Source: Phycisphaerae bacterium (GTDB lineage Bacteria; Planctomycetota; Phycisphaerae; JAAYCJ01). From it: a stretch of 48,377 nucleotides of DNA. Shown in pieces: positions 16,461 to 45,989 of the stretch. Numbering within the stretch: the stretch's first letter is position 1; each line of letters opens with the position of its first letter. A program made the translations under genes and the position numbers. The stretch lies in the NCBI GenBank assembly GCA_012729815.1, contig JAAYCJ010000073.1, positions 1 through 48,377 of the forward strand, read 5' to 3'. Under the pieces are notes generated by a model. That model ran no database searches. It was not told the DNA's origin and worked only from the letters and a program-made list of their open reading frames with translations.

Positions 16461-16472
16461 CGGAAACTCCGT

Positions 16473-17678
16473 CTAGCTCTTGGCGGCGGGTTGGCTGGTC
16501 GATTGAGCCTTGGGGCCTTCGCCCCCCTCAGCGGCCAGAGGGACCGCCTTGACGGCGCTTCCGGGCCGCACCTTCTGAAGGCCTTCGACGATCACCCGAT
16601 CGCCCGGCGCCAGACCCGAGGTGACGAGCCACGTATCGCCGATCGCCCGGTCAACCGTGATCATCTGCTGGCGGGCCTTGCCTTCGGCGTCCACGACCAT
16701 CGCCTGCGGATTGCCCTTGTGATCGCGTGAGACGCCCTGCTGAGGGGCCAGGATCGCCTGCTCGACGACCCCTTCCTCGATGACGACCCGCACGTACATG
16801 CCGGGCAGCAAAACGTGGTCCGGGTTCGGAAAGACCATCCGGAGAATGAACGACCCGGTACTCGGATCGACGGTGGCTTCGGAGAATTTCAACGTTCCTT
16901 CCAACGGATACGGCGTGCCGTCCTCCAACCGCAGCCTCACCCGCGCCTGGTCCGCGCCGCCGCTCTTGATCCGGCCGGCCGCCATGTTCTGTTTCAGGCG
17001 CAGCAGATTGGCGCTGGACTGCGAGGCGTCCACGTAGATCGGATCGAGCTGCTGAATGATCGCCAGAGGCACCGGCTGGTGCGCCGAGACCAGGGCGCCG
17101 ACAGTGACGCTGGAGCGGCCGATTCGCCCGCTGATCGGAGCGGTGACGCGCGTGTAGCCCAGGTTGATTTGGGCGGCCTGAACCGCCGCCTGGCCGTACT
17201 CGATGTCGGCCTTGACCTGGTTGAGCGCCGCGACCGCTTCGTCATAGGCCTGCCGGCTGATCGCCTTGGCGGCCACCGCCTCCTCGAAACGGGTCACCTT
17301 CGACTGGATCGGCGGCAGGTTCGCCTCGGACCGGGACAGGGCCGCGACGGCGTTGTCGTACGCCGCCTGGTAGAGCGCCGGATCGATCCGGTAGAGCATG
17401 TCGCCCTCGTTGACGTCGGCCCCTTCGGTGAACAGGCGCTCCTGAATGATGCCGCCGACCTGCGGGCGCACCTCGGCGATCAGGTGGGCCGCCGTTCTCG
17501 CGGGCAGCTCCGCGCTCAGCACCACGCGCTGCGGCTCCACCGTCACCACCGCCACCTCGGGCAAAGCGGCCTGGGCCGGCGGCGCGTCGCCGCTTGTCCT
17601 GTCGCAGCCGGTCAATGCCAATCCGGCGGCGAACACGCCGACGGCGGCAATCCGTCTGATCCTGTTGTCGATCTGCAT
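16473..17678 (-). CDS. RND periplasmic adaptor (membrane fusion) lipoprotein, AcrA-like
   Basis: About 401 residues from ATG 17678, with a lipoprotein signal ending LALTGC (Cys25). The mature protein has the adaptor order: beta-barrel strand, lipoyl half-motif (EVRPQVGGIIQERLFTEGADVNEGDMLYRIDPA), an alpha-hairpin (about 100-165), second lipoyl half (YTRVTAPISGRIGRSSVTVGALV) and beta-barrel/membrane-proximal domains with LLPGMYVRVVI. It links the inner-membrane pump to the outer-membrane channel. An in-frame ATG at 17702 lacks a ribosome site; 17678 has GAGG 5 bases upstream and is preferred. Its position between channel and pump genes fixes its partners. Confidence 0.94.
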   Translation of the reverse strand: MQIDNRIRRIAAVGVFAAGLALTGCDRTSGDAPPAQAALPEVAVVTVEPQRVVLSAELPARTAAHLIAEVRPQVGGIIQERLFTEGADVNEGDMLYRIDPALYQAAYDNAVAALSRSEANLPPIQSKVTRFEEAVAAKAISRQAYDEAVAALNQVKADIEYGQAAVQAAQINLGYTRVTAPISGRIGRSSVTVGALVSAHQPVPLAIIQQLDPIYVDASQSSANLLRLKQNMAAGRIKSGGADQARVRLRLEDGTPYPLEGTLKFSEATVDPSTGSFILRMVFPNPDHVLLPGMYVRVVIEEGVVEQAILAPQQGVSRDHKGNPQAMVVDAEGKARQQMITVDRAIGDTWLVTSGLAPGDRVIVEGLQKVRPGSAVKAVPLAAEGGEGPKAQSTSQPAAKS

Positions 17679-17735
17679 ACCATCCTCTGCTTGAAATGAC
17701 ATTCGTCGTAGTTTCCGGTCAGGTAACGGCCATCG

Positions 17736-19493
17736 TCACTCGGCTTCGCCAGCGGCCTCCGGCGGATTCTCCCACGGCAGCGCGTTCTTGCCGCCGGTGA
17801 AGAAGAACTCCACCGGGTCGCTGAGCGGAGCGGGAGTCTCCAGATACTCCTGCTGCGGGTTGGCCTGCGGCGACCAGCCGCCGCCCAACGCCTTGTAGAG
17901 AGACACCAGGTTGATCGCCACCTGGCCCGTGCTCCGGGCCAGCGTGTTCTCCAGGTTCACCAGCGATCGCTGGCTGTCCAGGACGTTCTGGAAGTCGGTC
18001 AGGCCGTTGCGATAGAGTGTCTCGGCGAGTTTCACGGATTCCTCAGCCGCCTCCGTCGCCCGCCGCAGCGCGTCGTGCCGGTCCCGCTCTCGCTGATAGG
18101 CCACCATCGAGCTCTCGACCTCCTGGAGGGCCGCCAGCAGCGTACGCTCGTAGAGAACGTACGATTGGTACGTCACCGCCTCCTGGGCGGCGATCCGATT
18201 GAGGTTCCGCAGGCCGTCGAAGATGTTCCACCGAAACGACGGCCCGAACCCGTAGGTGACGCTGCGGGCGTCGAGCGTGTGGGCGAAGTCGGTCGATTCA
18301 TATCCGAGAGTTCCCGAGAGCGTGAACTTCGGATACAGTTCCGCTGTGGCGACGCCAATTCCGGCGACCTGAGCCGCGAGACCGCGTTCCGCAGCCCGCA
18401 GGTCGGGACGTCGCCGCAGGATGTCAGCCGGAACACCCGCCAGCACCTCCGCCGGCGGCTGCGGGATGGGACTCTCGGCGGCGAACTCCTCCCAGAGGGC
18501 CGACGGTTCCTGGCCGATCAGCACGCTGAGGCGATAGATGCTGATGGCCAGGGCGCTCTGAAGTTGCGGGAGCTGCGACTGCGTCGTGGCCAGGTTGGTA
18601 CGGGCCTGTTGGACGTCAAGCTGCGTCGCCAGTTCCAGATCCAGCATCGTTTGGGTCAGTGCGAGCGTCTGTTCCTGAAGGTCGATGTTCCGCGCGGTGG
18701 CCTCGACCTGGCGTTGCAGCGTTCGAACCTCCACATAGGTGGTTGCGACCTCAGCCAGCAGCGTCACCAGGGTGTCGCGATAGTCCTCGACGGAAGCCTC
18801 GAGCGCCGCGTCGGCGGACTGGACGTTCCGCCGAATGCCGCCGAACACGTCGATCTCCCACGAGGCGTCAAAACCGGCCGCGTGAAGGTTGACTTCGTCG
18901 GTTTCCGGCAGCTTCGACGGGCTGGGGATCAGCCCGATCAGGCCGCTGGCGACCGGACCGGTGATGCCCGTGGCGCCCGGCGCGATCGCGCCAAAGCCGG
19001 TTCCGAGGGCGCTGCCGGCAATGCCGCGTCCCACCGTCTCAGCGAAGACCTCGCCCTTTCCAGGCGCTGAAGGAAAAGCCGTGGGCCCGTTGGCGCTGCT
19101 CTTGGACCGCTGGGAAGTCCCCTGCCCGCCCAGAACCGGCAGCAGTTCGCCCGCCGCCACGCCCCGTAAGGCCCGCGCTTCGCGAATTCGCAGCACAGCG
19201 AGTCGCAGATCGAGATTGCCTGTCGCAGCCCGCTCGATCAGCTCCGTGAGCTTCGGATCCTCAAAGACCTCCCACCACCGCTGAACGTTCGCGTCACCCT
19301 CCGCCAACCCCTCCGCCGCCGGCGGATGCCACCGATCGGGAAGTTGCAACTCCGGTGCGCGGTAATCCGGTCCGACCGCACAGCCGGCGACGGCAAGAAA
19401 CAGAACCGACATCGCCGCCCACGGCCGCAACCTGACGAGGCTGACACGCAACGCGTTTGAGGCGGCGGGAAGTTGGATTCGGGGGTCACTCAT
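17736..19493 (-). CDS. Outer-membrane efflux lipoprotein (OprM/NodT family)
   Basis: A 585-residue outer-membrane factor. A long basic n-region leads to a lipobox, AVAGC (Cys38), followed by the family hallmark CAVGPDYRAPEL. Two OEP repeats with long coiled helices follow, including LDLRLAVLRIREARALRG, LATQLDVQQARTNLATTQSQLPQL, and the repeat of this in LYRNGLTDFQNVLDSQRSLVNLENTLA. An insertion of about 60 residues rich in Gly, Ala and Pro between the first helices (about 120-185) makes it longer than the roughly 480 residues usual for OprM. It forms the trimeric exit duct for the RND pump. It starts 51 bases after tetR and ends 57 bases before the adaptor. A strong Shine-Dalgarno site is not visible. 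Confidence 0.92.
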   Translation of the reverse strand: MSDPRIQLPAASNALRVSLVRLRPWAAMSVLFLAVAGCAVGPDYRAPELQLPDRWHPPAAEGLAEGDANVQRWWEVFEDPKLTELIERAATGNLDLRLAVLRIREARALRGVAAGELLPVLGGQGTSQRSKSSANGPTAFPSAPGKGEVFAETVGRGIAGSALGTGFGAIAPGATGITGPVASGLIGLIPSPSKLPETDEVNLHAAGFDASWEIDVFGGIRRNVQSADAALEASVEDYRDTLVTLLAEVATTYVEVRTLQRQVEATARNIDLQEQTLALTQTMLDLELATQLDVQQARTNLATTQSQLPQLQSALAISIYRLSVLIGQEPSALWEEFAAESPIPQPPAEVLAGVPADILRRRPDLRAAERGLAAQVAGIGVATAELYPKFTLSGTLGYESTDFAHTLDARSVTYGFGPSFRWNIFDGLRNLNRIAAQEAVTYQSYVLYERTLLAALQEVESSMVAYQRERDRHDALRRATEAAEESVKLAETLYRNGLTDFQNVLDSQRSLVNLENTLARSTGQVAINLVSLYKALGGGWSPQANPQQEYLETPAPLSDPVEFFFTGGKNALPWENPPEAAGEAE

Positions 19494-20386: not shown

Positions 20387-20408
20387 ATGACATAAGGAGA
20401 TATGTCAT
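20387..20408 (+). promoter_or_regulatory. Hairpin enclosing the transposase ribosome-binding site
   Basis: ATGACATA and TATGTCAT form an 8-bp perfect stem whose 6-base loop, AGGAGA, is the Shine-Dalgarno sequence of the downstream transposase remnant. Its ATG (20407) begins inside the stem. Such a structure would restrain translation of the transposase. A second TATGACAT occurs at 20953-20960 at the far end of the remnant, so it may instead mark element ends. Confidence 0.45.
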
Positions 20409-20957
20409 GGTCAAGCAGGAGGCTTTGATGGAGTCGTTATCGGCGAATCTGCATGGGTTTCTCGACGAAATCAACGGGAGCCTGTCGGTTCCGGAGAAGA
20501 AGTTTCTCCGGGACGGGTTCGTGGGGCTGGTTCGGGCCGGTCATCCGATCGTCTGTCCGATGGCCAGGGAGGTTCCGAACCAACGGTGCCGGTACGCCAG
20601 TCGGGTCAAGCGGCTGGACCTTCACTTGACCGCCGCGACCGATTTCGACGAGCGGGTCGCCAAGACGCTTCCGAACGTCTGGCGGCCGCTGATGACCGAC
20701 GATACGCCGTTGATCCTGGACCTCTCGGACCTGGCCAAGCCGCTGGCGACGAAGATGGATCATCTGGCCACGGTGCGGGACGGCAGCACCGGGGCGTTGG
20801 TCAACGGGTATGGGAGAAACATCTGCGGTTGGCCGAACGGCTGATCGACTACGCCCAGGTCCTTCCCGACCGGGTCGATTTCATGTTGTACCGCCTGCTC
20901 ACCGGCCTGACGCACATCCTCAACGCCTGTTTCCACTTGCGGAGGGACTTACTATGA
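20407..20957 (+). pseudogene. DDE transposase remnant, internally deleted and frameshifted
   Basis: The first frame (20407-20844) encodes an apparently intact transposase N-terminus ending in LDLSDLAKPLATKMDHLATVRDGSTGALVNGYG, which contains the first catalytic Asp region of IS4-like DDE enzymes (PLILDLSDLAKP). After VNGY the sequence changes phase. The reading frame ending at 20957 continues WEKHLRLAERLIDYAQVLP and ends LTGLTHILNACFHLRRDLL, which looks like the C-terminus of the same kind of protein. The middle, with the remaining catalytic residues, is missing, so the copy cannot move by itself. Assignment of the two pieces to one parent is inference. The element lies between the efflux operon and a glycosidase-like gene, a plausible insertion site. 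Confidence 0.65.
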
Positions 20958-22197: not shown

Positions 22198-25100
22198 TCA
22201 GGCCGCACGCCCCGCCGGTCCCGAACGACGAGTGATTCGTCGGCGACCAATGGCGATGATCAGCCCGATCGCGGGGATCGTCATTGCCGCTGCGGCTTGT
22301 ATCGGATGAACCACCGTCAGCACCACCGGGGTCAGGGCCGCCCGCACCGCGGTCCGCCACTGCGGATCGACGGCGATGACCGTCGCCACAGGCGGCGAGA
22401 GGCGATAGTAGGTTCGCACGAACCATCGACCGGGAGCGTTAGTCACCAAGTGCTTGTCGCGGAAGTCGCGCAGCGTCGCCACGTGGGGCTCCAGTTCGCT
22501 GCCATAGGCGGCGGTGGCGATGAAGCATCCGCCGGAGATCGGCGGCGTGATCGACTCCTCGCCGAACACGGCCTTGACGCTCTTGTCGCCGTCCATGGTG
22601 ATCTGCGCCGCGCAGTCCGTGCCGGCGCAGTCGCCCTCCCACCGCAGGAATATCCATCCGTCAGCGGGCGTCGCCGTCAGGGCCACGACCGTCCCTTTGG
22701 AGTACGTGCCGCTGCTCTTATCGACCTGGCCCTGGCCCTCGATCGTTACGGTCAGCGTGCACAGGCTGGAGGCCTCCATGAAAACCGCCCGAACCGTCTT
22801 GTCGCCGTCCATGGTGATCGCCGCCGGGTTGGTCGATCCCGAAAGATCGCCCTCCCAGTGGTCGAAAACCCATCCCTCCGACGCGACGGCCCGCACCTGC
22901 ACCTCGGTCCCGGCGTCGTAGCTCCGGGATGACGGCGTGACCGAGCCGAGACCCGTGACGCCGACGCTGAGGGTGTAACGCGGCGTCTCCTCCTCGACGA
23001 AAACGGCGGTGATCGTCTTGTTGGCGTTCATGGTCACCGTGGATGGGTTGGCGTCGCTGCTCAGGTCGCCGACCCATCGGCTGAACCGCCAGCCGGCGTC
23101 GGCGGTGGCCGTCAACTCCACCTGCGCGCCCGCCGCGTAGACTCCGCCCGCCGGATCGACCGAACCGTCGCCGTGGGTGCGTACCGTCAGGACGTACTGC
23201 GCGATTGAAACCGGCACAAAGACCGCCTTGACGGTATAGTCGCCGCTCATGGCGATCGTCAGCGGATTGGCCGATCCAGAAAAATCCCCCTCCCAGTGGT
23301 CAAACTGCCAGCCGGAATCCGCAGTGGCGGTCAGCTCGACCTGCGCGCCGACGTCAAAGGTCCCGCCGTTCGGATCGACTGAACCTTCCCCCTCGATCTG
23401 GACCGTCAACCGGTATCCGCTGGGCGGCTCGGGAGCGGTCACAAACACCGCGATCACGCTCTTGTCGTCATCCATCACGATCGTGGCGGGATTGTCCGAG
23501 CCCGATAGGTCGCCGCCCCAGTGGTCGAAGACCCAGCCGTCGGCCGGTTCGGCGTTCAGCTCGACCTCCACGTTCGCATCGTACGTTCCGCCGTTCGGAT
23601 CGACCGAACCCTGACCCTGAACCTGCACGCTGAGGGTGTACTCAGCCTCCTCAAAGACCGCCTGCACGCTCCTGTCGCCCGTCACGTTGAGGCTGACGGG
23701 CGATGAGGCGCCGCTCACGTCGCCCTGCCACTCCACGAACCGGTAGCCGATCCCCGGCACGGCGGTCAGCGTGATGGGAATCCCGCGAAAGTACGTCCCG
23801 CTCCAGGTTCCCTCCGGATTGAGCATCCGGTTGACCTTGACCAGACCGGACCCAGCCGACGTGACGCTGAACGCGACCGTGGCCGTACCCGCCAGACCGA
23901 ATTTGTTGACCACGTGACCGCGCACGTAGTCCGGCCGCACCGAGGCGAAATTGCGCAGGATGTTCACCTTGCTCTGCCAGAAGCCGACCGAGGGAATCCC
24001 CTGCGACCAACTCCCGCTCCACGGATTGGTCACGCCGCCCCACCGCCCGACGTGATCGCCCATCTCGCCGCTGATCAGGTCCGCGCGTTCGTCGATCATA
24101 TCGGTCACGCGGTCCGGGTCGAACGTCACGTTCAGCAGGTCCGCCATCCGCCGGATGAACTCGTTGCGAAATTCACCGTTCTCAAGGAGGGTGGCGAACA
24201 GCTCGATCGACCACTCCGGATTCGACCAGTGAGGCACGTTTCGCGTCGAACAGTGGTCCAGCGTGTCGTGGGCCGGATCGTTGGCGGAAACCGAGTTCGA
24301 AGCGGGAAAGGCGAAGCCGAAGTCGGTGTCGAACAGCAGCCAGCGCCACTTGCCGTCCGTGGTGCGGGGCCGCCAGTACTTGATGTTGTTGCCCGGCCAA
24401 TCCGTATTCGCGCAATAGATCTGCGACGCCTGGTAGTCGATGAAGTTCTCCACGTCCATGAGGGTCTTGACGTAGGTATAGCTCTGCGGCTGCGTCATGT
24501 CGTGGGTCCGGATGTAGGTCAACAGGGACTCGTAGTGGCTGGCGTCGCCTTCGATGACATCGAGATCCTCCTCCAGCATATCGACGTTGTCCGGATCAAC
24601 GTCGTGGTGGTCGGCCAGATAGTGCTCGTTCATCTTCTCGCGGATGTTGTGAATACCCCAGTACACGCCGTTGACGTACACCGCCGCCGGACGAAACGCC
24701 TGGGCATCCACGTCCAGATCGGCGACCAGTCCGACCATGACGCCGTCGCGGATCAGGGTCGAGACCCAGTCGTCGCCGGAGTTCCGGAGCATCAACGCCT
24801 CGAACTCGTCGTGGTCCAGTTCCGGGAAGATCTGATAGTTGAACTCGCCGCGCCCGTAGTCCGATCGGGCAAACAGGGCCAGGCTCTTCTGCGGGCCAAG
24901 CCGCGTGGTCCCGCCGGCGATCTTCATGCCCGCGTCCTGGGCAAGCCCGACCGTCCCGTCCGGTTCGATCAGTTCGACGTGAACCGGCCGCTCCCAGTCC
25001 TGCCAGACGTTGCCGTCCTTGTACAACTGCGGATCGCCGGGATCGGGTCCCATGACGTAGATCCCGGTCTGGTCGTCCCAGAGGTGGTTGGGACTGGTCG

Positions 25101-25962
25101 AGAGCGAGACCACCGGCAGCGTCGAGGCGTCGGCGATCAGGAAGGTGTGCGTGACGGGCCGGCTGGGCAGGAAACCGTCCTGGAACGTCCGCGCCCGGAC
25201 GGTCGTGGTGGAGGCGACGTTGATCGGACCGCTGTAGGCGTACGTCCGGTAGTAGCGGGTGGAGGTCGCGCTGGTGTCTTCGTCGCGATAGGTGTAGGCG
25301 GTCTGCGAGGCCCCGTCGGTCGGCTCGCTGCCGTCGAGCGTGTAGAATACCCTCGCGCCGCTGTCGGCGGTCAGTTGCAGCGAGACCGCGCCCGAATAGA
25401 ACCCGCGGGTGTGCGAGAACTCCGGCGGATTGGCGAAACGAACGATGCCCGAATCATCGTTGGCGGAATTGGGCGAGGGCGTATCGTAGAAGAACCACTC
25501 GTCGCCCCCGTCGGGATACCGGCCGTAGGAGACGTCGACGGTCTGGGCCCCATAGGTGACGCTGTCGATCTCGGTGACTCCATCCGCAGCGAAAAGGCCG
25601 ATGTCCTCGCCGTCTCCGCTAAGCTGCATATCGAGGTGCAGGATCCCGTCCTCGCTGTCATCGTCAAACCAGAAGATCAGGTATTCACCCGCCTGGATCG
25701 TTGTGCGGGCGGCGTCGGCTGCGGAAATCTGGCACTTGGTCGGCTCGGCCAGATCGTCCGTCAGGTACATGCCCGCCAGGTTGACCGCCTCGGAACCGGC
25801 GTTGTAGATCTCCACCCAGTCATCATAGTCGCCGGTGTCGTCGGCCAGGGTCGAACTGTTGACCGCCATGAACTCGTTGATAAAGAGATCCTGGGCCGCC
25901 ACCGATCCGACCAACAGGACCACCGCCAGCAATCCTCGAAGCAGAGTCCCGATCACACACAT
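22198..25962 (-). CDS. Giant surface CotH-kinase protein with InlB-like repeats and CFI-box C-terminus
   Basis: A 1254-residue exported protein with a signal peptide to about residue 24. A lamin-tail domain follows (about 25-155; LFINEFMAVNS, DYDDWVEIYNAGSEAVNLAG), then a chitobiase-like C-terminal domain (about 165-280; VFYTLDGSEPTDG). The CotH kinase domain (about 285-580) has GVYWGIHNIREKMNEHYLA and the Asp pair in LLFDTDFGF (about 545). One divergent and five regular InlB-like repeats come next, ending near 1135. The end, GGCFIATAAYGSELEP, is a CFI-box, followed by LRDFRDKHL, a hydrophobic helix and an Arg-rich tail, a sorting or anchoring signal. CotH proteins phosphorylate Ser of partner proteins in Bacillus spores; the substrate here is unknown. 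AGGAG lies 6 bases before the ATG. It is a paralogue of the neighbouring CotH gene. Confidence 0.9.
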   Translation of the reverse strand: MCVIGTLLRGLLAVVLLVGSVAAQDLFINEFMAVNSSTLADDTGDYDDWVEIYNAGSEAVNLAGMYLTDDLAEPTKCQISAADAARTTIQAGEYLIFWFDDDSEDGILHLDMQLSGDGEDIGLFAADGVTEIDSVTYGAQTVDVSYGRYPDGGDEWFFYDTPSPNSANDDSGIVRFANPPEFSHTRGFYSGAVSLQLTADSGARVFYTLDGSEPTDGASQTAYTYRDEDTSATSTRYYRTYAYSGPINVASTTTVRARTFQDGFLPSRPVTHTFLIADASTLPVVSLSTSPNHLWDDQTGIYVMGPDPGDPQLYKDGNVWQDWERPVHVELIEPDGTVGLAQDAGMKIAGGTTRLGPQKSLALFARSDYGRGEFNYQIFPELDHDEFEALMLRNSGDDWVSTLIRDGVMVGLVADLDVDAQAFRPAAVYVNGVYWGIHNIREKMNEHYLADHHDVDPDNVDMLEEDLDVIEGDASHYESLLTYIRTHDMTQPQSYTYVKTLMDVENFIDYQASQIYCANTDWPGNNIKYWRPRTTDGKWRWLLFDTDFGFAFPASNSVSANDPAHDTLDHCSTRNVPHWSNPEWSIELFATLLENGEFRNEFIRRMADLLNVTFDPDRVTDMIDERADLISGEMGDHVGRWGGVTNPWSGSWSQGIPSVGFWQSKVNILRNFASVRPDYVRGHVVNKFGLAGTATVAFSVTSAGSGLVKVNRMLNPEGTWSGTYFRGIPITLTAVPGIGYRFVEWQGDVSGASSPVSLNVTGDRSVQAVFEEAEYTLSVQVQGQGSVDPNGGTYDANVEVELNAEPADGWVFDHWGGDLSGSDNPATIVMDDDKSVIAVFVTAPEPPSGYRLTVQIEGEGSVDPNGGTFDVGAQVELTATADSGWQFDHWEGDFSGSANPLTIAMSGDYTVKAVFVPVSIAQYVLTVRTHGDGSVDPAGGVYAAGAQVELTATADAGWRFSRWVGDLSSDANPSTVTMNANKTITAVFVEEETPRYTLSVGVTGLGSVTPSSRSYDAGTEVQVRAVASEGWVFDHWEGDLSGSTNPAAITMDGDKTVRAVFMEASSLCTLTVTIEGQGQVDKSSGTYSKGTVVALTATPADGWIFLRWEGDCAGTDCAAQITMDGDKSVKAVFGEESITPPISGGCFIATAAYGSELEPHVATLRDFRDKHLVTNAPGRWFVRTYYRLSPPVATVIAVDPQWRTAVRAALTPVVLTVVHPIQAAAAMTIPAIGLIIAIGRRRITRRSGPAGRAA
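22560..23643 (-). repeat. Five InlB-like tandem repeats inside the CotH protein
   Basis: Five units of about 72 residues (about 216 bases), each of the form hydrophobic strand-GxGSVDPNGG-Y/F-D-A-G-V-L-A-W-F-DHWxGDLSGSxNP-I-MDGDKSV-AVF. Units end in (K/R)(S/T)V(K/R/I)AVF. They resemble the bacterial repeat domain related to the Listeria internalin B-repeat, a beta-rich spacer or adhesive stalk. The last unit carries an extra Cys pair (CAGTDCAA). Confidence 0.85.
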
Positions 25963-26468
25963 GTTGTACTCCTATTCTAAGCAACATGACTTATACAAGC
26001 CGTCGGCGCCAGCGGTTCGAACCGCCGAAGGCAGACCACCTATGAATGTACCGTATCCAGGGTCAGATGCATTCATCACTCACACCGGTGCGTCTGGCGA
26101 TAGCAGGCGTGCACAGTCTGGCAGCGATGCTACATGGCCGGCCGCAGCCTTTTGAAGTTGTCCTTACTCTTATCCAGTATTACTAATCCGCCGAACTCTT
26201 CGCGATACCCCCGTTCGACCGCGTCCAGCGGCCTTGGCGCCGACTGTCCTGACGTGGGCCCATAAGAATATAACGCCACATGGGGGAGCAAAGTTTCAAA
26301 CCAAGCTCAAGCCAATCTCGTCGCGCCCAAGCCCCTCACCGCCGATGCCACTGAGGCGCGGCTCAAAGCCCACGGACCCCGACAGCCCGGGTTTCTGACC
26401 AAGGCGCTCGGGAGTGTCGCCTTGCGCCATTGATCTTTGAATGCCAACAGGACTGCCAGACAGACTTG
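25963..26468. other. 506-base gap between the two CotH genes
   Basis: No supportable gene on either strand. A perfect 14-base palindrome GCGGTTCGAACCGC lies at 26012-26025, about 50 bases upstream of the downstream CotH start, a candidate operator. A small inverted repeat GGACTG...CAGTCC (26450-26475) covers the stop of the upstream CotH gene. No clear sigma-70 promoter was found; TATAAG at about 25991 on the minus strand lacks a -35 partner. Confidence 0.45.
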
Positions 26469-29400
26469 TCAGTCCCGCCTGAAACTCACTCCCCTGGTCG
26501 TCACCTCTCGCCAACCGGGCAGCAAGAGGCACCCAAACACGATCAGCCCGATCAGCGCCATGCCCAGTATGCCACAGGCCGAACCGGGCAGCTCAGCCGG
26601 CTCCGCGTCTTGTGGACAATCATCGAGAACCGCCGGCGCCTCGCCGAATACCTGCTTGTAGGCCTCCTCAAACGACATCACGATCCCAGCCGCCGCACCG
26701 TAGCCCTGACCGTAGTAGGCGGCCAGGATGCTCAAGTCGGCGAGGCTCACCGCCCCGTCGCCGGTGAAATCGCCATCGGCCCATGTCATACCGCTGACGG
26801 TGCCGTAGTGGGCCGCCAGAACGGACAGATCGCCGAGACTCACAGCACCATCAAGGTTCGCATCACCGGGCCAGAGGAACTCGTCGGCTCCGATGTCCAC
26901 TCGACCGCCAACCATGCGGGGAAGGAAATCCATGTCAAGCTGATCGCCCGCGGCAAGGCCGGGATCGCCGGCGTCCCGGCAGGGCGAAGTCGAGGTCAGG
27001 TGGTAATCGTTGTCACCGAAGGTGTTGGGATCGTCGTCCGCGCCGTCGGCGTCGGCAAACAGCGGGTCCTGCCCGATGTTCCCGGTTCCACCCAACCCGC
27101 CCGTCCAGCCCTGAATGCAGCAGTAATCCACGGCAGGCGCACCGGTTCCGGCATAGATTTGAGCCGATTCGCTGGTACCGCCACTGCGGCTGTTGAGCCA
27201 GAGGATGGTACTGTTCAAAGACGGGCTGCTGGTGCCCGCGCAGTAGATACCACCACCGTCGGCACTGGTGAAGTTGCCATTGCCCGAGAGCGTACAACTG
27301 ATCAGGACGGGATTGCTGTCAAAGTTGCAGATTCCGCCGCCGAAGTAAAAGGACATGTTGCCGATCAGGCGGCAGTTCGTCAAAACGGGACTGCCGCCCA
27401 AGTTGCAGACTCCACCGCCGTACATCGCCACGTTGTCGATGAGGATGCAGTGCCGAAGGCTGGGCGATCCAGCCGCGTTGAGGAGGCCGCCGCCCATGTT
27501 CTCGGTTGATCCAGTGGCGTTGCCGCCGGTGATGGTTACTCCGTCCAGGACAGCCGTATTGTCGGTGCCGCTGCCGACAACCACGTGATAGCTGTTGTCG
27601 GAATTGCTGCCGACAGCCCCGATGTCACCGCTCAGAACCGTCACGTTGTGATTCGGGCGGCGCTGAGACCGGTCCGTCTCCTGGCCGGAGAAGCCGCCAT
27701 AGATGCTCAATCCGTTGAGCAACTGGAACGAGAGATCGCGACGGTTCGTTCCCTGGTCCGGCCGATACGTCCCGCCGGCAACCCAGATCTCGGCCACCAC
27801 GCCGCCGGAACCCGCCGCGGCGGTCAGAGCGGCCTGCAGATCGTTGTAGGCGGTGGCCCACGTGTACCCGTCACCGCCGGCCGCGGCGGCCGAGTCGACC
27901 ACAAGGATCGACGGCGGCGTCACTTCAAGTATCGCCGTCCGACTCGCCACCGTGCCGCACGCATTGCTGACGTAGCAGACCACGGCCGCACCCGTATCGG
28001 TGAGTTCCAGCCCGGTCAGGTGCAGCGACGCCGAGTCGCCGCCGACCTCCATGCCGTTCTTCTCCCACCGGTAGTGCAGCGTGCCGCTGCCGGCCGCCGT
28101 CACGCTAAACGTCGCGCCCTGCACCAGCGAGATGCTGGCATCCTGCGGCTGCTGGGTGATCTGCGGGCCGCATGCGGTCACGCTGTTGATCGCGCCGGGC
28201 GTGCCGTGTCCGGTCGAAGCGGCCCAGCTCGAGGCCGCGCCGTTGTCCGTGGCCGGGCAGATCAGTTCCAGCGTGGGCCCGGTTCCATCCGGCGCGGTCG
28301 GCCAGGGCGAGACGTCGCCGTAAGTCACCGTGTCGATCAGGTATCCGTCCGCGTCGTACAGGCTGATCTGTTCGCCGCCGTTACTGGCGTTGAACGTGAA
28401 ATCGCCGATGTAATTCTCGACCTGCGGGAAGAAGCTGTGGAAGTACACCTGGTTGTTGCACAGCACCAGGTAGTCCCGCGGACCGATCGACGTGTGCGGC
28501 GGAAAGACGTAGACGTTATTCGGATCGGAGTCGGTGAACTGCCAGCCGGACAGATCGACCTCCCAGTCATTGGGATTGAACAGCTCGATCCAGTCCTGGG
28601 CGTCGAAATCAGCCGCCGAGTTGTAGTTGATCTCGTTGATGATGATCGGATTGGTGTTGCCGGCGTCGGCCACAAAATTGGCGGTCAGAGTCGCGGTTCC
28701 TGTCGGCGTCATCAGCATCGAAGGCCCGCCGCTGCATTCGGTCCAGTTGGCGAATCGATACCCGCGGTTGGGCATCGCCATGACCTTGATCGGCACGTCG
28801 AGGAAGTAGGTGCCCGCGCACGCCCCACTCGGTTCGGTCGGCAGGACCAGCCGGTTGACCTTGACCCGCCCAGCCTCGGCCGGCGAGACGTTGAAGGTGA
28901 TCTCCGCGCTGCCGCTGAGACCGAAATGGCTGATCACGTGCTGCCGGACGTATGGCGCCCGGCTGGTGGCGAAGTCCATCTGCCGCTGAATCTCGTTTTC
29001 CCACTGGCTCATCGAGGGAATCCCCACCAGCCAGGGGTTGATCGTTCCACTCCAGGGGTTATAGACCCCGCCCCACCGTCCGATGTGGTCAAGCATCTCC
29101 GGCTCAAGCAGCGCCTGCTTCTCCGCGATCTCGGCGAGCACGCGGTCCGGACGGAACGTCACGTTCATGTGGTCGGCCATGTCGCGGATGAACCGCGTCT
29201 GGAAATCGCCGTTCTGCAGCAGCGTGCGGAAGAGCTCCGTGGACCACGGCTTGTTGGACCAGTGTGAGGACGTGGCCGTGGTCGCGTGCTCGATCATGTC
29301 GTACTGCTCGTAAAGGCCGGTCTCGACGACCCGCGAATTGGGCCGAGGCGAACAGAAGGCGTAGTCCGTGTCGATCAGCATCCACCGCCACCGGCCGTTG

Positions 29401-31031
29401 TCCACCCGCGGCCGCCAGTAGCGGGTGTTGCCGCTTGGCCAGTCGGTGTTCGCGATGTAGATCTCCGAAGCCATGTAATCGAGGTAGTTGTCAACCTCCA
29501 TGAAGGTCCGGACATGCGCGAACGGCGCGGGATAGCGCAGGTCGTTGGCCCGGATGTAGTCCAGCAGCCCCTGGTAGTGCGTCGCGTCGCCCGCCGCCAC
29601 GTCCATGTTGTCCACCAGGATGTCAACCTCGGTCGGCTCAATGTTGTAGTGCGACGCCACGTACTGGTCGTTGCGGCGCTCGCGGATGTTGATGATGCCG
29701 TAGTATTCGCCGTTCAGGTAGATGTGGGCCGGGCGATAGGCGTGCGTGTCCAGGTCCAGTTCGTCCACCAGACCCCAGGTCGTTAACGCATCCTGGAACA
29801 ACGTATAGCTCCAGTCGTCGCCCGAACAGCGCAGCGTCAACCCCTCAAAGACGTCGATATCCCGGTCGGGAAACACCCGGTAGTCGATCTCGCCCGCTCC
29901 ATACGCGCTGCGGGCGTAGAGGGCCATCGGTTTCTGCGGCCCAAGCCGGCTGATGTCGCCTCCGGTCTTGACGCCGATGCCCTGGCTGACGCCCAGCGTC
30001 CCATCCGGCTCAAAGAGTTCCAGGTACGCCGCCCGCTCCCAATCCTCCCACACGTTGGCCGAGCCGAACCGCGTCCCGGTGTACGGCGGCGGGCCCATCA
30101 CGAAGATGCCGATCAGATCGTCCCAGAGGTTGGCGGGCGTCGAGGACAGGCTGATCACCGGCAGCGTCGGCGCGGCTTCCAGAATGAAAGTGCGGGTGAC
30201 CGTCTGGCTGGGCATGTACCCCGGTCGGACCGCCTTGGCCCTGACCACCGTGGTGGAGCTGATCGCGATCGGTCCGCTGTATTGATAGGTGTCGTAATAG
30301 CGAGTCTCGGTGGACCCGCCGTAGTATTCTTCGTAGCGGTAGGTGTACGGGTTGTGCGAGGCCCCTTCCGTGGGCTCGCTGCCGTCGAGCGTGTAGTAGA
30401 TGGTCGCGTTCGGGTCCGGCGAACTGAGTGTCAGCGAGAACGAACCGGCGCAGAATCCCGCCGCGTGCGAGAACACGGGCGACGAGGCATATCCCGGCGA
30501 GCCCGCCGTGGTGTTCGAGGCGCCGGGAGTGGCGTCGGCGAAGTAATACCAGGTGGCGCTGCCGTCGGGCTGGCGGCCCATCGACACGTCGGTGGACTGG
30601 ACGTCGAAATTCAGGCTGTCGATCACGCTCGTCCCGTCCGCGGCCACCAGGCCGATGTCCTCGCCGTCGGCGCTGAGCTTCATGGCCACGTGCAGCGGGC
30701 CTTGGGTCGCCACGTCGTCAAACCAGATGATCAGAAAGCCGCCCGCTGGTATGGTGGTCGTCGCCGAGTACCCGGTTGGAATCTGGGCCTTGGTCAGGTC
30801 GGACAGGTCGTCGGTCACGTACATCCCGCCGATGTCCACGGCCGTGCCGCCCCCGTTGTAGATCTCGACCCAATCGTCGTACTCACCGTACTCGTCGTCG
30901 ATCGTCGTGTCGTTGGTCGCCATGAACTCGTTGATGAACAGGAGTTGCCCTCGCGCGGGAACGGCGCTTGCCGCCCACACGCCCGCAGCCAACAGACCAA
31001 TCAGTACCGCATTCCGCTTCACCGCACGCAT
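26469..31031 (-). CDS. Giant CotH-kinase protein with lamin-tail, Ig, beta-helix and dockerin modules
   Basis: A 1520-residue exported protein with a signal peptide ending near residue 28. Order: lamin-tail domain 1 (about 30-175), chitobiase-like domain (about 185-285; IYYTLDGSEPTEG), and CotH kinase (about 290-640; GEYYGIINIRERRNDQYVA and the Asp pair in MLIDTDYAF near 550). Next come one InlB-like unit, lamin-tail domain 2 (about 808-960; INEINYNSAADFDAQDWIEL) and an Ig-like domain (about 965-1060; ITQQPQDASISLVQGATF). A right-handed beta-helix of the choice-of-anchor type covers about 1065-1380 (YTWATAYNDLQAAL). Two dockerin-type calcium loops (GDANLDGAVSLGDLS, GDFTGDGAVSLADLS, about 1400-1455) precede a C-terminal hydrophobic helix ending GWRE. 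The first half is paralogous to the next gene; the second half is unique. No cohesin is seen. Confidence 0.9.
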   Translation of the reverse strand: MRAVKRNAVLIGLLAAGVWAASAVPARGQLLFINEFMATNDTTIDDEYGEYDDWVEIYNGGGTAVDIGGMYVTDDLSDLTKAQIPTGYSATTTIPAGGFLIIWFDDVATQGPLHVAMKLSADGEDIGLVAADGTSVIDSLNFDVQSTDVSMGRQPDGSATWYYFADATPGASNTTAGSPGYASSPVFSHAAGFCAGSFSLTLSSPDPNATIYYTLDGSEPTEGASHNPYTYRYEEYYGGSTETRYYDTYQYSGPIAISSTTVVRAKAVRPGYMPSQTVTRTFILEAAPTLPVISLSSTPANLWDDLIGIFVMGPPPYTGTRFGSANVWEDWERAAYLELFEPDGTLGVSQGIGVKTGGDISRLGPQKPMALYARSAYGAGEIDYRVFPDRDIDVFEGLTLRCSGDDWSYTLFQDALTTWGLVDELDLDTHAYRPAHIYLNGEYYGIINIRERRNDQYVASHYNIEPTEVDILVDNMDVAAGDATHYQGLLDYIRANDLRYPAPFAHVRTFMEVDNYLDYMASEIYIANTDWPSGNTRYWRPRVDNGRWRWMLIDTDYAFCSPRPNSRVVETGLYEQYDMIEHATTATSSHWSNKPWSTELFRTLLQNGDFQTRFIRDMADHMNVTFRPDRVLAEIAEKQALLEPEMLDHIGRWGGVYNPWSGTINPWLVGIPSMSQWENEIQRQMDFATSRAPYVRQHVISHFGLSGSAEITFNVSPAEAGRVKVNRLVLPTEPSGACAGTYFLDVPIKVMAMPNRGYRFANWTECSGGPSMLMTPTGTATLTANFVADAGNTNPIIINEINYNSAADFDAQDWIELFNPNDWEVDLSGWQFTDSDPNNVYVFPPHTSIGPRDYLVLCNNQVYFHSFFPQVENYIGDFTFNASNGGEQISLYDADGYLIDTVTYGDVSPWPTAPDGTGPTLELICPATDNGAASSWAASTGHGTPGAINSVTACGPQITQQPQDASISLVQGATFSVTAAGSGTLHYRWEKNGMEVGGDSASLHLTGLELTDTGAAVVCYVSNACGTVASRTAILEVTPPSILVVDSAAAAGGDGYTWATAYNDLQAALTAAAGSGGVVAEIWVAGGTYRPDQGTNRRDLSFQLLNGLSIYGGFSGQETDRSQRRPNHNVTVLSGDIGAVGSNSDNSYHVVVGSGTDNTAVLDGVTITGGNATGSTENMGGGLLNAAGSPSLRHCILIDNVAMYGGGVCNLGGSPVLTNCRLIGNMSFYFGGGICNFDSNPVLISCTLSGNGNFTSADGGGIYCAGTSSPSLNSTILWLNSRSGGTSESAQIYAGTGAPAVDYCCIQGWTGGLGGTGNIGQDPLFADADGADDDPNTFGDNDYHLTSTSPCRDAGDPGLAAGDQLDMDFLPRMVGGRVDIGADEFLWPGDANLDGAVSLGDLSVLAAHYGTVSGMTWADGDFTGDGAVSLADLSILAAYYGQGYGAAAGIVMSFEEAYKQVFGEAPAVLDDCPQDAEPAELPGSACGILGMALIGLIVFGCLLLPGWREVTTRGVSFRRD

Positions 31032-31083: not shown

Positions 31084-32216
31084 TCAGCGGGACCGGACCA
31101 CCACCACTTCACCGGGAAACAATCGCATCTCATGAGGCACGGTCACGAGCACCGCCCGTCCCCATTCCGCCACCGCTGGGTTCCGCCACAGTTGCATCGG
31201 CTTGGTCTCAACCGCCGGCGCCAGCATCTGCACGGTCGAAAGCCCCATCCGCGTCGGATCCGCCCGCGTCACCAGTTCCACCCGCATCCCCTTCTCAGCC
31301 TCGTTGAACTCCCGATCGCTCAGGTAGGCCAGCACGGACGTCGGCTCCTTCGCCACCACCGACACCAGCGGATCGCCCGGCCGCACCGCCTCGCCGGCGC
31401 CGCGAAACACCGCGATGACCGTGCCGTCCATCGGCGAAGTCAGCACCAGCATCGCCCGTTCGACCGACAACTCAGCGACTCGCCGGTCCTGGACGGTGAT
31501 CGCCTCGCGAAGCGGGGCCAGCGTCGTCTCAAGGCTCGGAACGGCCGGATGTTGCGCCTCGAAATCCGCCAGACGGCGCTGGGCGTCGGCCAGATCGTTC
31601 CTGGCCTGGACCAGGGCCGCTTCATCCTCCTCGATCCTCTTCCGCAACGAGGCATAAGGCGAGCGGACATCTTCCGGTTGGCCGGAAGCGGCGGCGTCGC
31701 TCGGCTGCGCGCTCTGCAAGACCTCCGCCTGCAGTTTCAGGTCCGCCAGCGCGATCCGGTCCGTCTCAATCTCGGTGGTCAGATCGAGCACCCGAAGACG
31801 GACGGTCTCGACGTCCGTGGCGAACCGGCGGCCCTCAGCCGTCCGGGCCAACTGCTGATTCTGAGCGTCGGCCTCGAGCCGGGCCTCCGTCGCCGCCAGT
31901 TCCGCCCGGAGCCGGGCGACCTCAGCCGAGGCGGTCGCCAAGGCGCTGCGAACCTGGTCGTCCTCCAGAACCGCCAATGTCTGGCCCTGACGAACCTCGT
32001 CGAACAGCCGAATCGGCATCAAACGCCCCCCCCCGTGCATACCGACGCGATCTGCCGGGTCTCGCTCTGGGCGATCCCGAGCGCCTGGAAGCGAACCCTC
32101 CGGCCAGAGCTCAGCCACACCACCATCGCCACCGCCGCCAACCAGACGATGATCGACACGCCGTGGCGGCGTCCCATCCGCTTGGCGTGATCCAGCCAGT
32201 AATTCACCGTTGCCAT
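31084..32216 (-). pseudogene. HlyD-like membrane adaptor, split by a frameshift in a G9 tract
   Basis: The N-terminus from ATG 32216 (MATVNYWLDHAKRMGRRHG, then a membrane helix) runs into TGA just after a nine-G tract (C's at 32026-32034 on the plus strand). The rest continues in another frame: a lipoyl-like half-site (LFDEVRQGQTLAVLEDDQV), a long coiled coil, a second half-site (LTSPMDGTVIAVFRGAGEAVRPGDPLVSVV) and a beta-barrel ending LFPGEVVVVRSR. Joined, this is a normal HlyD-type adaptor of about 377 residues, anchored in the inner membrane with a periplasmic body. One extra G (or two fewer) restores the frame. It may be a sequencing error, a real mutation or a phase-variable switch. GAGG lies 8 bases before the ATG, and the gene starts 3 bases after the DUF4956 stop, so they are coupled. 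Confidence 0.8.
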
Positions 32217-32219
32217 GAC

Positions 32220-32915
32220 TTAAACCTCAAGGAGTTCTTCTTGCACGGTCAGGGCGATCTCCGAGATTCCCTCGACGGACTCCAGGGCCGAGACCAGGTC
32301 CTCGTTCCGCGAACGGTCGCGCACCATCAATTGATAGGCGTACTCCGCCGCCTGCGAACCCAGCACGTCCTGGACTGAAATCAGCGTGAAGTGGTTGCAG
32401 TATCGCTTCAGGACGTCCAGCAGCGGATGTCCCGGAGCCAACCCGCCTCGCAGGCGGAACCGCAGGTACGCGTTCAGCGGCTGGTGCGAGCCAAACGACG
32501 TCCAGTGCAGATAAATCGCGATCAAACACAACACGATCGTGCCCAAAACCGCCACCTCGTGCCGCTGGGCTCCCGCCGCCATCCCCACCACCAGCGCGCA
32601 GAACACGAACGCCATGTCGCGCGTGTCCTTCAGAATGTTCCGGAACCGGATGATCGCCAGCGCCCCCATCAACCCGAAGGCGGTGATGATGCTGTTGCCG
32701 ATCACCGCCATCACCATCGCCACCACCACCGTGATCAGAATCAGCGACTGCACGAACGATCGCGAGTACGACAGACCGCTGTGAGTCATGTAGTAGACCC
32801 ACGCGAAGACCTGACCGAGGACGAAGGCGAGGAGGAGTGATACCAGGACGTCCAGGGGAGAAACCCTCTCTCCGCCGACGCCGAAGTTCTCGAAGAATTG
32901 CAGTAGTCCGTCCAT
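32220..32915 (-). CDS. DUF4956 family membrane protein
   Basis: 231 residues from ATG 32915 (MDGLLQFFENFGVGG). Four or so membrane helices occupy the first 150 residues, with the conserved core SFVQSLILITVVVAMVMAVI, GLMGALAIIRFRNILKDTRD and AFVFCALVVGMAAG. A cytoplasmic alpha-beta domain follows (about 160-231) resembling an ACT-like or MgtC-like C-terminus. The family has no proven function; I recall it as a frequent neighbour of VTC-domain proteins, which is also the case here. The longer open frame to 33101 is rejected because it would lie wholly inside the VTC gene and has no membrane-protein N-terminus. The true start lies inside the VTC frame, giving a 130-base overlap. Confidence 0.85.
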   Translation of the reverse strand: MDGLLQFFENFGVGGERVSPLDVLVSLLLAFVLGQVFAWVYYMTHSGLSYSRSFVQSLILITVVVAMVMAVIGNSIITAFGLMGALAIIRFRNILKDTRDMAFVFCALVVGMAAGAQRHEVAVLGTIVLCLIAIYLHWTSFGSHQPLNAYLRFRLRGGLAPGHPLLDVLKRYCNHFTLISVQDVLGSQAAEYAYQLMVRDRSRNEDLVSALESVEGISEIALTVQEELLEV

Positions 32916-33676
32916 TTCGCCACTCCCGCGCGCACCGGGGCGCAAAAGCCCAGCAGCCGCGCCTGTTGTACACTGCTGACGTATTTGGCCACCGACCGCT
33001 GCATCAGGTCGAAGCGCCTGACCATGCCGTTGAGCCAAGCCGGATAGCGCCCGGTGAACTTGATCTCCAGAATCACCCCAGGCATCGTCACCCGCCGCCA
33101 ACCCTCACCCGCCATCTGCAGCTCGGCCCGCTGGGTCACCTGCATCGACAGATCCCGGTCGAACGTGATCCGCACCGGATCGCCCGCGAGGCTCTCGAAG
33201 GCCTGCCGCATGTAGCGAACCCGAATCACCGGCTTGGCCTTGATCCGCTCCATGTAGAACAGGAACTGCTCCAGCTTTCGATCGGCCGGGGCATCGCCCG
33301 GCGACGCCTGAAGGTACTTCTCCAGGGCCCACGCCGGCACCCGGACCCGCGACTTGATCACCGCCCGATTCACCCGGCGCTTGATCTCGAAAAACCGCGG
33401 GTAGTCCAGATCGTCGGTGTAGCTGCGGACCCGCAGCTTCACCCGGTTCTTCTCCCCCGTCATCGTCTGGCGGCACAGCAGCAGATTGTCGGAATCCAGG
33501 TAGAGGCTGACGATCGGATAGGCCCCTCGCTCGTGTGACCGGGCGTGACGATCAAGCCGCATGAACGGACGCAGATATACCACCATGGCCGCGGCCTGCG
33601 CTTCGCTGATCAGGTACTTGATCTCGAAGCGAGACTCGATACTCCGAGGTCTCTGATTTTCCACAACTCCCAGCAT
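32786..33676 (-). CDS. VTC-domain protein (polyphosphate polymerase-like)
   Basis: A 296-residue protein of the VTC/CYTH-like tunnel fold. Basic and acidic strands that line the tunnel are visible: SRFEIKYLIS (about 14-24), VSLYLDSDN (about 56), RVKLRVRSY (about 78-86), FFEIKRRVNRAVIKSRV (about 95-111), PVIRVRYMRQAF, VRITFDRDLS and VILEIKFTGRYPAWL. In yeast Vtc4 this fold polymerises ATP gamma-phosphate into polyphosphate. The EIK, KLRVR, EIKRR and LEIKF motifs needed for nucleotide and metal binding all appear intact. The last 45 residues overlap DUF4956 in another frame and look low-complexity. First gene of the CotH cassette; no strong promoter was recognised upstream on the minus strand. 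Confidence 0.87.
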   Translation of the reverse strand: MLGVVENQRPRSIESRFEIKYLISEAQAAAMVVYLRPFMRLDRHARSHERGAYPIVSLYLDSDNLLLCRQTMTGEKNRVKLRVRSYTDDLDYPRFFEIKRRVNRAVIKSRVRVPAWALEKYLQASPGDAPADRKLEQFLFYMERIKAKPVIRVRYMRQAFESLAGDPVRITFDRDLSMQVTQRAELQMAGEGWRRVTMPGVILEIKFTGRYPAWLNGMVRRFDLMQRSVAKYVSSVQQARLLGFCAPVRAGVAKWTDYCNSSRTSASAERGFLPWTSWYHSSSPSSSVRSSRGSTT

Positions 33677-43486: not shown

Positions 43487-44803
43487 GTGGGCGTGAGAAC
43501 GATGGGTCTGTTGGCGGCGATTCTATGCGCGGCGCCGGGACTGGCCGGCACGGTACAGGCGGCGGAGCCCAACCACATCGACACCGGCACCACGGCGTGG
43601 ATGCTGATCTCGACGGCCCTGGTGCTGTTGATGGTGCCGGGGCTGGCGATGTTCTACGGCGGTCTGGTGCGGACCAAGAACGTCCTGGGCACGATGATGC
43701 ACAGCTTCGCTGCGATGGCCCTGATCGGGGTGCTCTGGGCGGTGTGCGGATACGCCCTGAGCTTCGGACCGAACGTGCTGGGCGGATGGTTCGGCTGGAA
43801 CGGCGAGCTGTTCCTGCTGAATGGGATCGATGAGACGATCATGGCCTCGGGCATCCCGGAATACGTATTCGCGATGTTCCAGGGCAAGTTCGCGATCATC
43901 ACGCCGGCCCTGATCGCCGGAGCGTTCGCCGAACGGGTGCGATTCCGCGGGTACTGCTTCTTCATCGTGCTCTGGAGCCTGCTGGTATACTGCCCGCTGT
44001 GCCACTGGGTCTGGTCGGAAGAGGGATTCCTGTTCAAGCTGGGGGCAATCGACTTCGCGGGCGGCACGGTGGTCCACATCTCCGCCGGCATCAGCGGCCT
44101 GGTCGCGGTGCTGTATCTGGGGGCGAGGCGAGGCTACCCGCGGACCGCGATGCACCCGAGCAACCTGGTCATTACGCTGATCGGTGCGGGCCTGCTGTGG
44201 GTGGGCTGGTTTGGATTCAACGCAGGCAGCGCGGTCGAAAGCGGCCTGACCACGGCGAGGGCGCTGACGGTGACGCAGGTGGCGGCGGCGGCTGGGGCGC
44301 TCACGTGGATCATCATCGAAGCCTTCCACCACGGCAAGGCGACGAGCCTGGGCATCGCCAGCGGCATCCTGGCCGGTTTGGTGGCTATCACTCCGGCCGC
44401 CGGCGTGGTCCAGCCGTCCGGTGCGATCGCCCTGGGCGTCGCGGCCTCGGGCGTGTGCTACGTGGCCATCCTCATCAAGAACCGGATCGGATACGACGAC
44501 AGCCTGGACGCCTTCGGCATCCACGGCGTGGCCGGAATGCTCGGAGCGGTGCTGCTGACATTCTTCATCCGCCAAAGCTGGGTCGCCAACAACGGCGGCG
44601 AGAGTTGGACAACGATGGGACAGCTTGGCGTCCAGGTCCTGGGCGTGGCGACGACCATCGCCTACGCCGGCCTGCTGACGATCATCCTGGTCGTGCTGGT
44701 GGACAAGACGCTGGGATTGCGGATGCAGCCGCAGAACGAAATGGCCGGGATGGACCACAGCCTCCACGGCGAGCACGGCTATGGAATGTTGAACCCGAAC
44801 TGA
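43487..44803 (+). CDS. amt: Ammonium transporter Amt (first copy)
   Basis: 438 residues with a signal peptide ending near VQAAEP and eleven membrane helices. Family marks include VPGLAMFYGGLVRTKNVL, GAFAERVRFRGY, CHWVW, the first pore His in VVHISAGISGLVA and the second in FGIHGVAGMLGAVLL. It conducts ammonium across the inner membrane as a trimer. GTG 43487 is the start, with AAGGAG 7 bases upstream. The cytoplasmic tail DKTLGLRMQPQNEMAGMD is where PII proteins dock. It is followed by a PII gene after 42 bases, the classic amtB-glnK pairing, and has a sigma-54 promoter. Confidence 0.96.
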   Translation: MGVRTMGLLAAILCAAPGLAGTVQAAEPNHIDTGTTAWMLISTALVLLMVPGLAMFYGGLVRTKNVLGTMMHSFAAMALIGVLWAVCGYALSFGPNVLGGWFGWNGELFLLNGIDETIMASGIPEYVFAMFQGKFAIITPALIAGAFAERVRFRGYCFFIVLWSLLVYCPLCHWVWSEEGFLFKLGAIDFAGGTVVHISAGISGLVAVLYLGARRGYPRTAMHPSNLVITLIGAGLLWVGWFGFNAGSAVESGLTTARALTVTQVAAAAGALTWIIIEAFHHGKATSLGIASGILAGLVAITPAAGVVQPSGAIALGVAASGVCYVAILIKNRIGYDDSLDAFGIHGVAGMLGAVLLTFFIRQSWVANNGGESWTTMGQLGVQVLGVATTIAYAGLLTIILVVLVDKTLGLRMQPQNEMAGMDHSLHGEHGYGMLNPN

Positions 44804-44845
44804 GAGGCGCATAAAGAGCAGCCCGATCAAAGGAGACAACCGATC

Positions 44846-45187
44846 ATGAAGATGGTGACTGCGATCATACAGCCGGACAAGTTGGACGCGGTTCGCGAGG
44901 CCCTGATCGACGCGGAGATCACGCGGATCACGGTGAGCCGGTGCACCGGGCATGGCCAGCAGCAGACCGAGGACCTCTACCGCGGCCAACGGGTGGTGCC
45001 CAACCTGATCCCGAAGGTGCGGCTGGACATCGCCTGCAACGATGAATTCGTCAAAACCACCGTCGATGCGATCCTGGCCGCGGCACGCCACGGCGAAGGA
45101 CAGGTCGGCGACGGCAAGATCTTCGTCGCGCCGCTGGAAGAGTGCATCCGGATCCGCACGGAAGAGCGGGGAGGAAAGGCGATCTAA
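44846..45187 (+). CDS. glnK: PII signalling protein, GlnK-like (first copy)
   Basis: 113 residues with the PII fold. MKMVTAIIQPDKLDAVREAL opens the protein, and the T-loop is GHGQQQTEDLYRGQRVV (about 35-51). The B-loop is GDGKIFVAPLEECIRIRT, and the C-terminus RGGKAI. PII senses ATP/ADP and 2-oxoglutarate and blocks Amt pores. The T-loop is one residue short and Tyr51, the uridylylation site, is replaced by Val (residue 50); Tyr45, matching Tyr46, is kept. Modification by GlnD at the usual site is therefore impossible. AAAGGAG lies 10 bases upstream. Partner is the adjacent Amt. Confidence 0.94.
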   Translation: MKMVTAIIQPDKLDAVREALIDAEITRITVSRCTGHGQQQTEDLYRGQRVVPNLIPKVRLDIACNDEFVKTTVDAILAAARHGEGQVGDGKIFVAPLEECIRIRTEERGGKAI

Positions 45188-45219
45188 AGCGGTCAGGCGA
45201 ATCAGGAAAAGGCGGAACC

Positions 45220-45663
45220 TTACGGGCCGGATGGCGACGGCGATTCCGTCGCCTCCGGCGGCGACGGCGTTGATTCAGCAAGATAGATGGGGCTATCAAA
45301 CTCGACGCCGATTTCGTAGAGGCTCGCGCTGCCGGCCAGATACCGGCATCGGATGACCTTTCCGGTCAGGGGGCGGCAGTCGCCGTCGGGCAGTTCGAAG
45401 TTGAGGCAGCAGGCGGTGCCGGCGTAGATGAACTGGCCGATCAGGAGGGCGACGCCAAACCGGCTGAGATTGCGGGTCAGCGACGTGTAGACGAGCGGCT
45501 GAGCGCGGTCCTGGTGGAATGCCGCCTTCACGACGGTTCGATAGGGAATCCGTTCGGCCCGTCTTTGTTGACGAGCCGCGGCCCTGGAGGCCTGGGAATC
45601 AAGATCGTCAAGCCGCTGCCGGCATTCCCGTAAAGAATGCTTGAGTCTCTTCTCACGCTGCAT
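45220..45663 (-). CDS. PilZ-domain protein, probable c-di-GMP receptor
   Basis: 147 residues from ATG 45663. A helical, Arg-rich N-terminus (about 1-35) leads into a PilZ domain (about 35-130). Both nucleotide-binding motifs are intact: RxxxR at 38-42 (RIPYR) and N-x-S-x-x-G at 65-70 (NLSRFG). Later strands include GKVIRC and YEIGVEFD. The C-terminal 18 residues are Ser/Pro-rich. A single-domain PilZ protein usually relays c-di-GMP to motility or surface machinery. The longer frame to 45924 is rejected because its extra N-terminus is unlike any domain and covers the amt control region. It is antisense-oriented between the two amt-PII pairs. Confidence 0.8.
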   Translation of the reverse strand: MQREKRLKHSLRECRQRLDDLDSQASRAAARQQRRAERIPYRTVVKAAFHQDRAQPLVYTSLTRNLSRFGVALLIGQFIYAGTACCLNFELPDGDCRPLTGKVIRCRYLAGSASLYEIGVEFDSPIYLAESTPSPPEATESPSPSGP

Positions 45664-45989
45664 GGTGTTGCCCACTGGGTGTTGGTGCGCGTCCGACCGC
45701 AACGCGTACTTCCCAACTATCGTCACGGACAGCCGGACAGCTTTAACGTTCTGACAAGCCACAATAAACAAATCCCGGCAAATGGAACACAAAAACGTAG
45801 CCGCTTCAAAGCATATTACACTTTTGTCGCCGCCCATCCAACGCAATGCCGCCGCCAACATCTCATAAACCCATTCTCCGCAATCCTTTCCGATCGCCCG
45901 TCCGCGATGGCGCGCGGATTGCATCCTTGAGTGGCAATCCGCACGTCGTGTGCGGCAAGACTTTTTTGCATGTTGGAGACAGTGCAGCC
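45664..45989. other. Divergent control region of pilZ and second amt
   Basis: No gene accepted. It carries one copy of ACAAAAACGTAGC (45789-45801) and a weaker look-alike ACAATAAAC 28 bases before it. A GCAAGACTTTTTTGC stretch near 45951-45965 resembles a -24/-12 element, but its GG-GC spacing is 12, not 10, so I do not call sigma-54 there. Confidence 0.5.
45789..45801 (+). repeat. Third copy of the ACAAAAACGTAGC element, upstream of second amt
   Basis: Identical over 13 bases to 43275-43287 and at nearly the same distance from the amt start codon (201 versus 212 bases). Confidence 0.5.

Follow-up and report, generated by a model that had tools for sequence, protein, structure and literature searches.

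In the window, by which we mean the whole stretch of 48,377 nt from a Phycisphaerae bacterium that was analyzed, a gene for an HlyD-like adaptor on the minus strand is broken by a single-base change of frame at a run of nine G residues (32026..32034). It is established that the gene is broken, that the shift amounts to one base, that relatives lack the break, and that the coding signal is intact on both flanks. The deficit is probably an ordinary one, which would have arisen at an apparently lineage-specific and slippage-prone tract either as a real and recent indel or as a miscount in the reads or the assembly.

The plus strand carries exactly nine C residues at 32026-32034, and this is the sole G9/C9 run of the window. 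Across the tract, the minus-strand frame that begins with the ATG at 32216 reads ACG GGG GGG GGC GTT TGA, and it closes after 65 codons at the TGA at 32021-32019. The initial annotation had put this stop four codons after the run, which holds when the count starts inside the tract; counted from its end, the TGA is the second codon past the codon that holds the last G. The second frame (ORF 31084-32118) is open from 5′ of the tract down to 31084, and since the two frames are offset by exactly one base, a run of ten G would indeed restore one frame, as had been proposed. The break is real, as observed by two independent tests, namely codon-usage segmentation and the separate homology of the two halves. 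The segmentation, which was blind to the tract and for which the HlyD-like gene was excluded from the training genes, placed the frame switch at 32022/32023; the codon-usage signal was strong in each frame right up to the tract, and then switched. Besides the frame break, no stop was present in 313 codons. The strong coding signal on both sides and the lack of any further stop therefore indicate that the break is recent or artefactual. Hence, sequence, segmentation and homology agree with the first description of a nine-G run that splits an HlyD-like gene. The length of the tract is by itself unremarkable, because about one G9/C9 run is expected in the window by chance (mean of 1.22 per dinucleotide shuffle; at least one in 61 of 100 shuffles), and it is the coincidence of the tract with the frame break, rather than the length of the run, that carries weight. 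The idea that the window is generally indel-ridden was rejected: few direct same-strand frame switches were given by the segmentation, i.e., those at the HlyD tract, at the VTC/DUF4956 gene boundary and at 20811/20812. The stretch at 20401-20957 (plus strand), with its frame change near 20811, has by eye the appearance of a transposase remnant that has decayed and suffered an internal deletion, and no Pfam match was obtained for either of its pieces.

The N-terminal part of the gene (32019..32216, minus strand) was delimited by translation and by tblastn (best E 3e-13), and it contains a hydrophobic stretch that was judged by eye to be a membrane anchor. The remainder (31084..32025, minus strand), which lies in the other frame, was recognized both by Pfam and by tblastn (38 of 47 loci), and comprises barrel-sandwich, coiled-coil and HlyD_3 parts. 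Its Pfam matches were HlyD_3 (1.4e-7; 32.7 bits for a cut-off of 22.2) and Biotin_lipoyl (2.3e-6; 27.8 bits for a cut-off of 22.1), with HlyD_D23 slightly under its cut-off (29.7 against 30). The window gene thus has the barrel-sandwich match over a curated cut-off that marks the HlyD family, and these matches, together with the homology of both halves, bore out the family assignment made at the outset. With the HlyD family (PF13437, PF16576, PF00364) it shares the N-terminal hydrophobic anchor and the HlyD_3 and Biotin_lipoyl matches, but its relatives are mostly open frames of ~380-440 residues, whereas the window gene is broken in the assembly after about residue 60. The continuity between N-terminal anchor and periplasmic part, which was found in all 30 comparable relatives, is missing in the window; since the frame is broken at the tract, we classify the gene as a broken member of the HlyD family. 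HlyD-like proteins sit in the periplasm as adaptors, with an anchor in the inner membrane, so that the earlier description of the gene as surface-related fits only in a loose sense. No partner transporter or outer-membrane channel adjoins the gene among the neighbours that were scanned. The window does contain an AcrB-HlyD-OEP set (13287-19493), but this set is separate from the broken gene and has an adaptor of its own.

The comparison with relatives was based on 47 loci, drawn from samples of 61 genomes and of 397 genomes of the class (both counts include the window's own genome). The two parts were searched separately by tblastn, and matches of the N-part were accepted up to an E of 1, some of them being weak. 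The C-part was matched in 38 of the 47 loci, and in 30 of these 38 the N-part was located directly 5′ of it; in the other eight, which include the two broken copies described below (G013 and G256), the N-part was not matched. In all 30 relatives with both parts, the halves shared a single open frame. They were separated by 12 nt in 29 relatives and by 6 nt in the remaining one (L064), compared with 11 nt in the window, where the tract thus lacks one base. The initial annotation had suggested that the tract be compared in related genomes, and the outcome was negative for the tract: the G run was absent from all 30, with no homopolymer longer than 5 at the site, and the gene was intact in every one of them. 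The four residues that relatives carry at this site are a variable one, G (27/30), R or Y (24/30), and L, I or V (30/30). The G run puts glycine codons in place of these four residues, and a glycine where every relative has L, I or V implies that more than a single slip separates the window from its relatives. Judged from these alignments, the tract appears to be lineage-specific. As for the depth of kinship, three genomes represent the order, the genus having no second genome among them, and 13 genomes represent the family to which G013 belongs. No match above ~45% identity over the gene was found in the genomes searched, the closest short match being the N-part of G013 (62% identical across 55 residues). 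A contig search for closer relatives gave 13 distant HlyD proteins (best E 1e-6), and a search of a plasmid collection gave no match.

The same comparison bears on whether the nine-G gene could still yield its product. A full-length adaptor could be made by recoding, i.e., by a −1 slip of the ribosome on G-GGG-GGG or by slippage of RNA polymerase, and the geometry is suitable, in that a −1 slip on the run enters the downstream frame exactly. However, the slippery site was conserved in none of the 30 relatives, and the downstream RNA structure was not unusual (z 0.26; a fold of equal or greater stability in 126 of 200 shuffles), so that neither the conserved slippery site nor the stimulatory structure expected of a programmed −1 frameshift was found at the tract. 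Purifying selection acts on programmed slippery sites, and the sites of transcript slippage are usually runs of A or T (PMC3711429). Recoding is therefore considered highly improbable. Alternatively, the gene could be a split one, in which coupled reinitiation at a TGATG (32017..32021, minus strand), where the stop of the first frame overlaps the ATG of the second frame 6 nt past the G tract, would use the run as a Shine-Dalgarno sequence and give a separate soluble piece of 311 aa. The pairing of the tract with the anti-Shine-Dalgarno (−8.0 kcal/mol, compared with −2.4 to −8.3 for 10 other starts of the window) is in keeping with this, but G-rich runs pair with the anti-Shine-Dalgarno through composition alone. 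Furthermore, a split gene of this kind was found in none of the relatives, and the reinitiated piece would lack the N-terminal anchor with which the adaptors of relatives begin, and therefore should not reach the periplasm. We regard this arrangement as scarcely probable at all.

Poly-G and poly-C tracts are known to undergo slipped-strand mispairing in phase-variable genes, e.g., the type III methyltransferase mod genes and Helicobacter modH. A phase-variable switch, in which such mispairing at the G tract would toggle the adaptor, and hence the export function of the locus, between on and off in part of the cells, has several features on its side. As in those genes, a homopolymer of the nine-G type lies early in the ORF and shifts its frame, and both its length and its early position suit known poly-G switches; the coding signal on its two sides has been kept, and only five other G runs in the 5.47 Mb assembly (367 contigs) reach its length. 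Poly-C/poly-G tracts and transporters or surface proteins are mentioned in PMC3711429. The gene thus contains a frame-shifting homopolymer of at least about 8 bases, as contingency genes do. Neither a tract kept in homologues (0/30 relatives) nor a genome-wide repertoire was found. The assembly contains 161 G7, 26 G8 and 6 G9 runs, and none longer; a geometric fit expects ~5 runs of at least 9 G and 0.9 of at least 10, so that the tail of the distribution is geometric, with no genome-wide excess of long runs. When the 32 G8/G9 tracts were scored by codon usage, with thresholds of the analyst's own choice, 23 had the same coding frame before and after the run, 7 were one-sided or without signal, and 2 were flagged as shifted, namely the tract of the HlyD-like gene and L040. 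The G9 of L040 was rejected as a second frame-breaker, because the frame of an Mpo1-like gene on the opposite strand runs through it, and no second convincing gene-breaking tract was present among the 32. Full mismatch repair is missing in the poly-G switchers that are known best; here, unlike in the poly-G/poly-C phase-variable genes, mismatch-repair homologues are present: there were three MutS-family matches, the best in an uninterrupted frame of 1138 residues, and a MutL frame of 628 residues, also uninterrupted. A phase-variable switch is accordingly unlikely. Still less probable, and rather far-fetched, is a variant in which a true poly-G switch operates despite the mismatch-repair genes, with a tract that displaces conserved residues in the first strand of the adaptor and acts in the off state as a Shine-Dalgarno sequence for reinitiation. 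Of the three possibilities that the initial annotation had left side by side (switch, mutation or error), mutation or error gained support from a singleton that is one base under the 12-nt spacing, and the switch gained nothing beyond the length and place of the tract.

We therefore favour the ordinary one-base deficit. A conserved HlyD-like adaptor gene would have gained a G run where its relatives have varied x-G-R/Y-L/I/V codons, and one base would then have been dropped at this run by ordinary slippage, in the cell or in the data. That slippage was the cause, that the event is recent and that the function is lost are inferences. Because the assembled sequence is one base short, translation should end after 65 residues, so that the nine-G allele would give a 65-residue anchor peptide and no full-length adaptor. 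That the deficit arose in the cell, as a recent indel which is segregating or newly fixed, has a little under an even chance; an origin in library preparation, sequencing or assembly is a serious possibility, although one that falls clearly short of even. The other coding G8/G9 runs are in frame (23 of the 32, in addition to the Mpo1-like case), which indicates that the assembly usually counts such runs correctly, and argues against a miscount. On the other side, BLAST-supported singleton frameshifts were expected to be mostly sequencing errors in the GeneTack survey (PMC3711429). The singleton frameshift genes classed there as 'H-pseudo / Error' resemble the window gene in being supported by homology and in not being common to homologues, but that survey dealt with complete genomes, and the window belongs to a fragmented assembly of 367 contigs (PMC3711429).

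Broken copies of the gene also occur elsewhere. The G013 copy of the HlyD-like gene breaks off at about residue 50 and is divided between two contigs (the end of L076 and the start of L075). Both contig ends carry sequence delimited by the same inverted word of 15 bases, which lies beside what by eye look like both termini of a transposase gene, and the interrupting sequence resembles an insertion element. In G256 (L074, 5545-6900), a VTC fragment is fused in frame to a truncated HlyD-like copy with an internal TGA, which is a degenerate locus from an apparent deletion. Loss of the HlyD-like gene thus seems to be tolerated in some lineages, and these two broken copies lend plausibility to the view that the window gene was truly inactivated by mutation.

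The gene directly upstream of the HlyD-like gene encodes a DUF4956 membrane protein (32220..32915, minus strand; Pfam PF16316, 6.2e-15), which is 58-66% identical in the loci of six relatives and probably belongs to the same operon. It is preceded by a VTC-domain (polyphosphate-polymerase-like) gene (32786..33676, minus strand; Pfam PF09359, 8.1e-33), a conserved neighbour in relatives. At 32786-32915 (minus strand) the open frame of VTC extends about 130 bases into the beginning of the DUF4956 gene, and the Pfam VTC match stops before this overlap. The order VTC-DUF4956-HlyD was kept in 6 of 8 regions from relatives, the two exceptions being G256, which is rearranged, and the second G013 contig. 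The HlyD-like gene is followed downstream by a large CotH-kinase/lamin-tail/dockerin-type protein of 1520 residues (26469..31031, minus strand; Pfam CotH 1.5e-34, LTD 6.2e-34). It is the longer of two adjoining CotH-kinase proteins at 22198-31031 (minus strand), each with a lamin-tail domain; the first of the pair, of 1254 aa, carries six Flg_new_2 (InlB-B-like) repeats. Elsewhere in the window, an ammonium transporter, a P-II protein and a second ammonium transporter lie close together (43487-47333, plus strand). The VTC-DUF4956-HlyD locus may export an extracellular product. CotH, a polyphosphate polymerase and DUF4956 have been described as accessory genes beside the Gram-positive pelDEADAFG cluster (PMC7112168), which was the only relevant title on combinations of VTC, HlyD, DUF4956 and CotH in the literature searched. 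That Pel-side cluster shares three protein families with the window neighbours CotH, VTC and DUF4956, but the neighbour in the window locus is an HlyD-like adaptor, in the VTC-DUF4956-HlyD order that relatives conserve; no mention of HlyD was met in the description of the Pel-side cluster.

These results call for caution, in that phase variation cannot be read from a homopolymer frameshift in a single assembled genome. The spacing in relatives, the run-length distribution of the genome and the mismatch-repair genes together provide a cheap test, which here favours a singleton produced by a slip or a miscount. Were the switch nevertheless genuine, poly-G phase variation would extend to a little-studied CotH/VTC/DUF4956 export locus.
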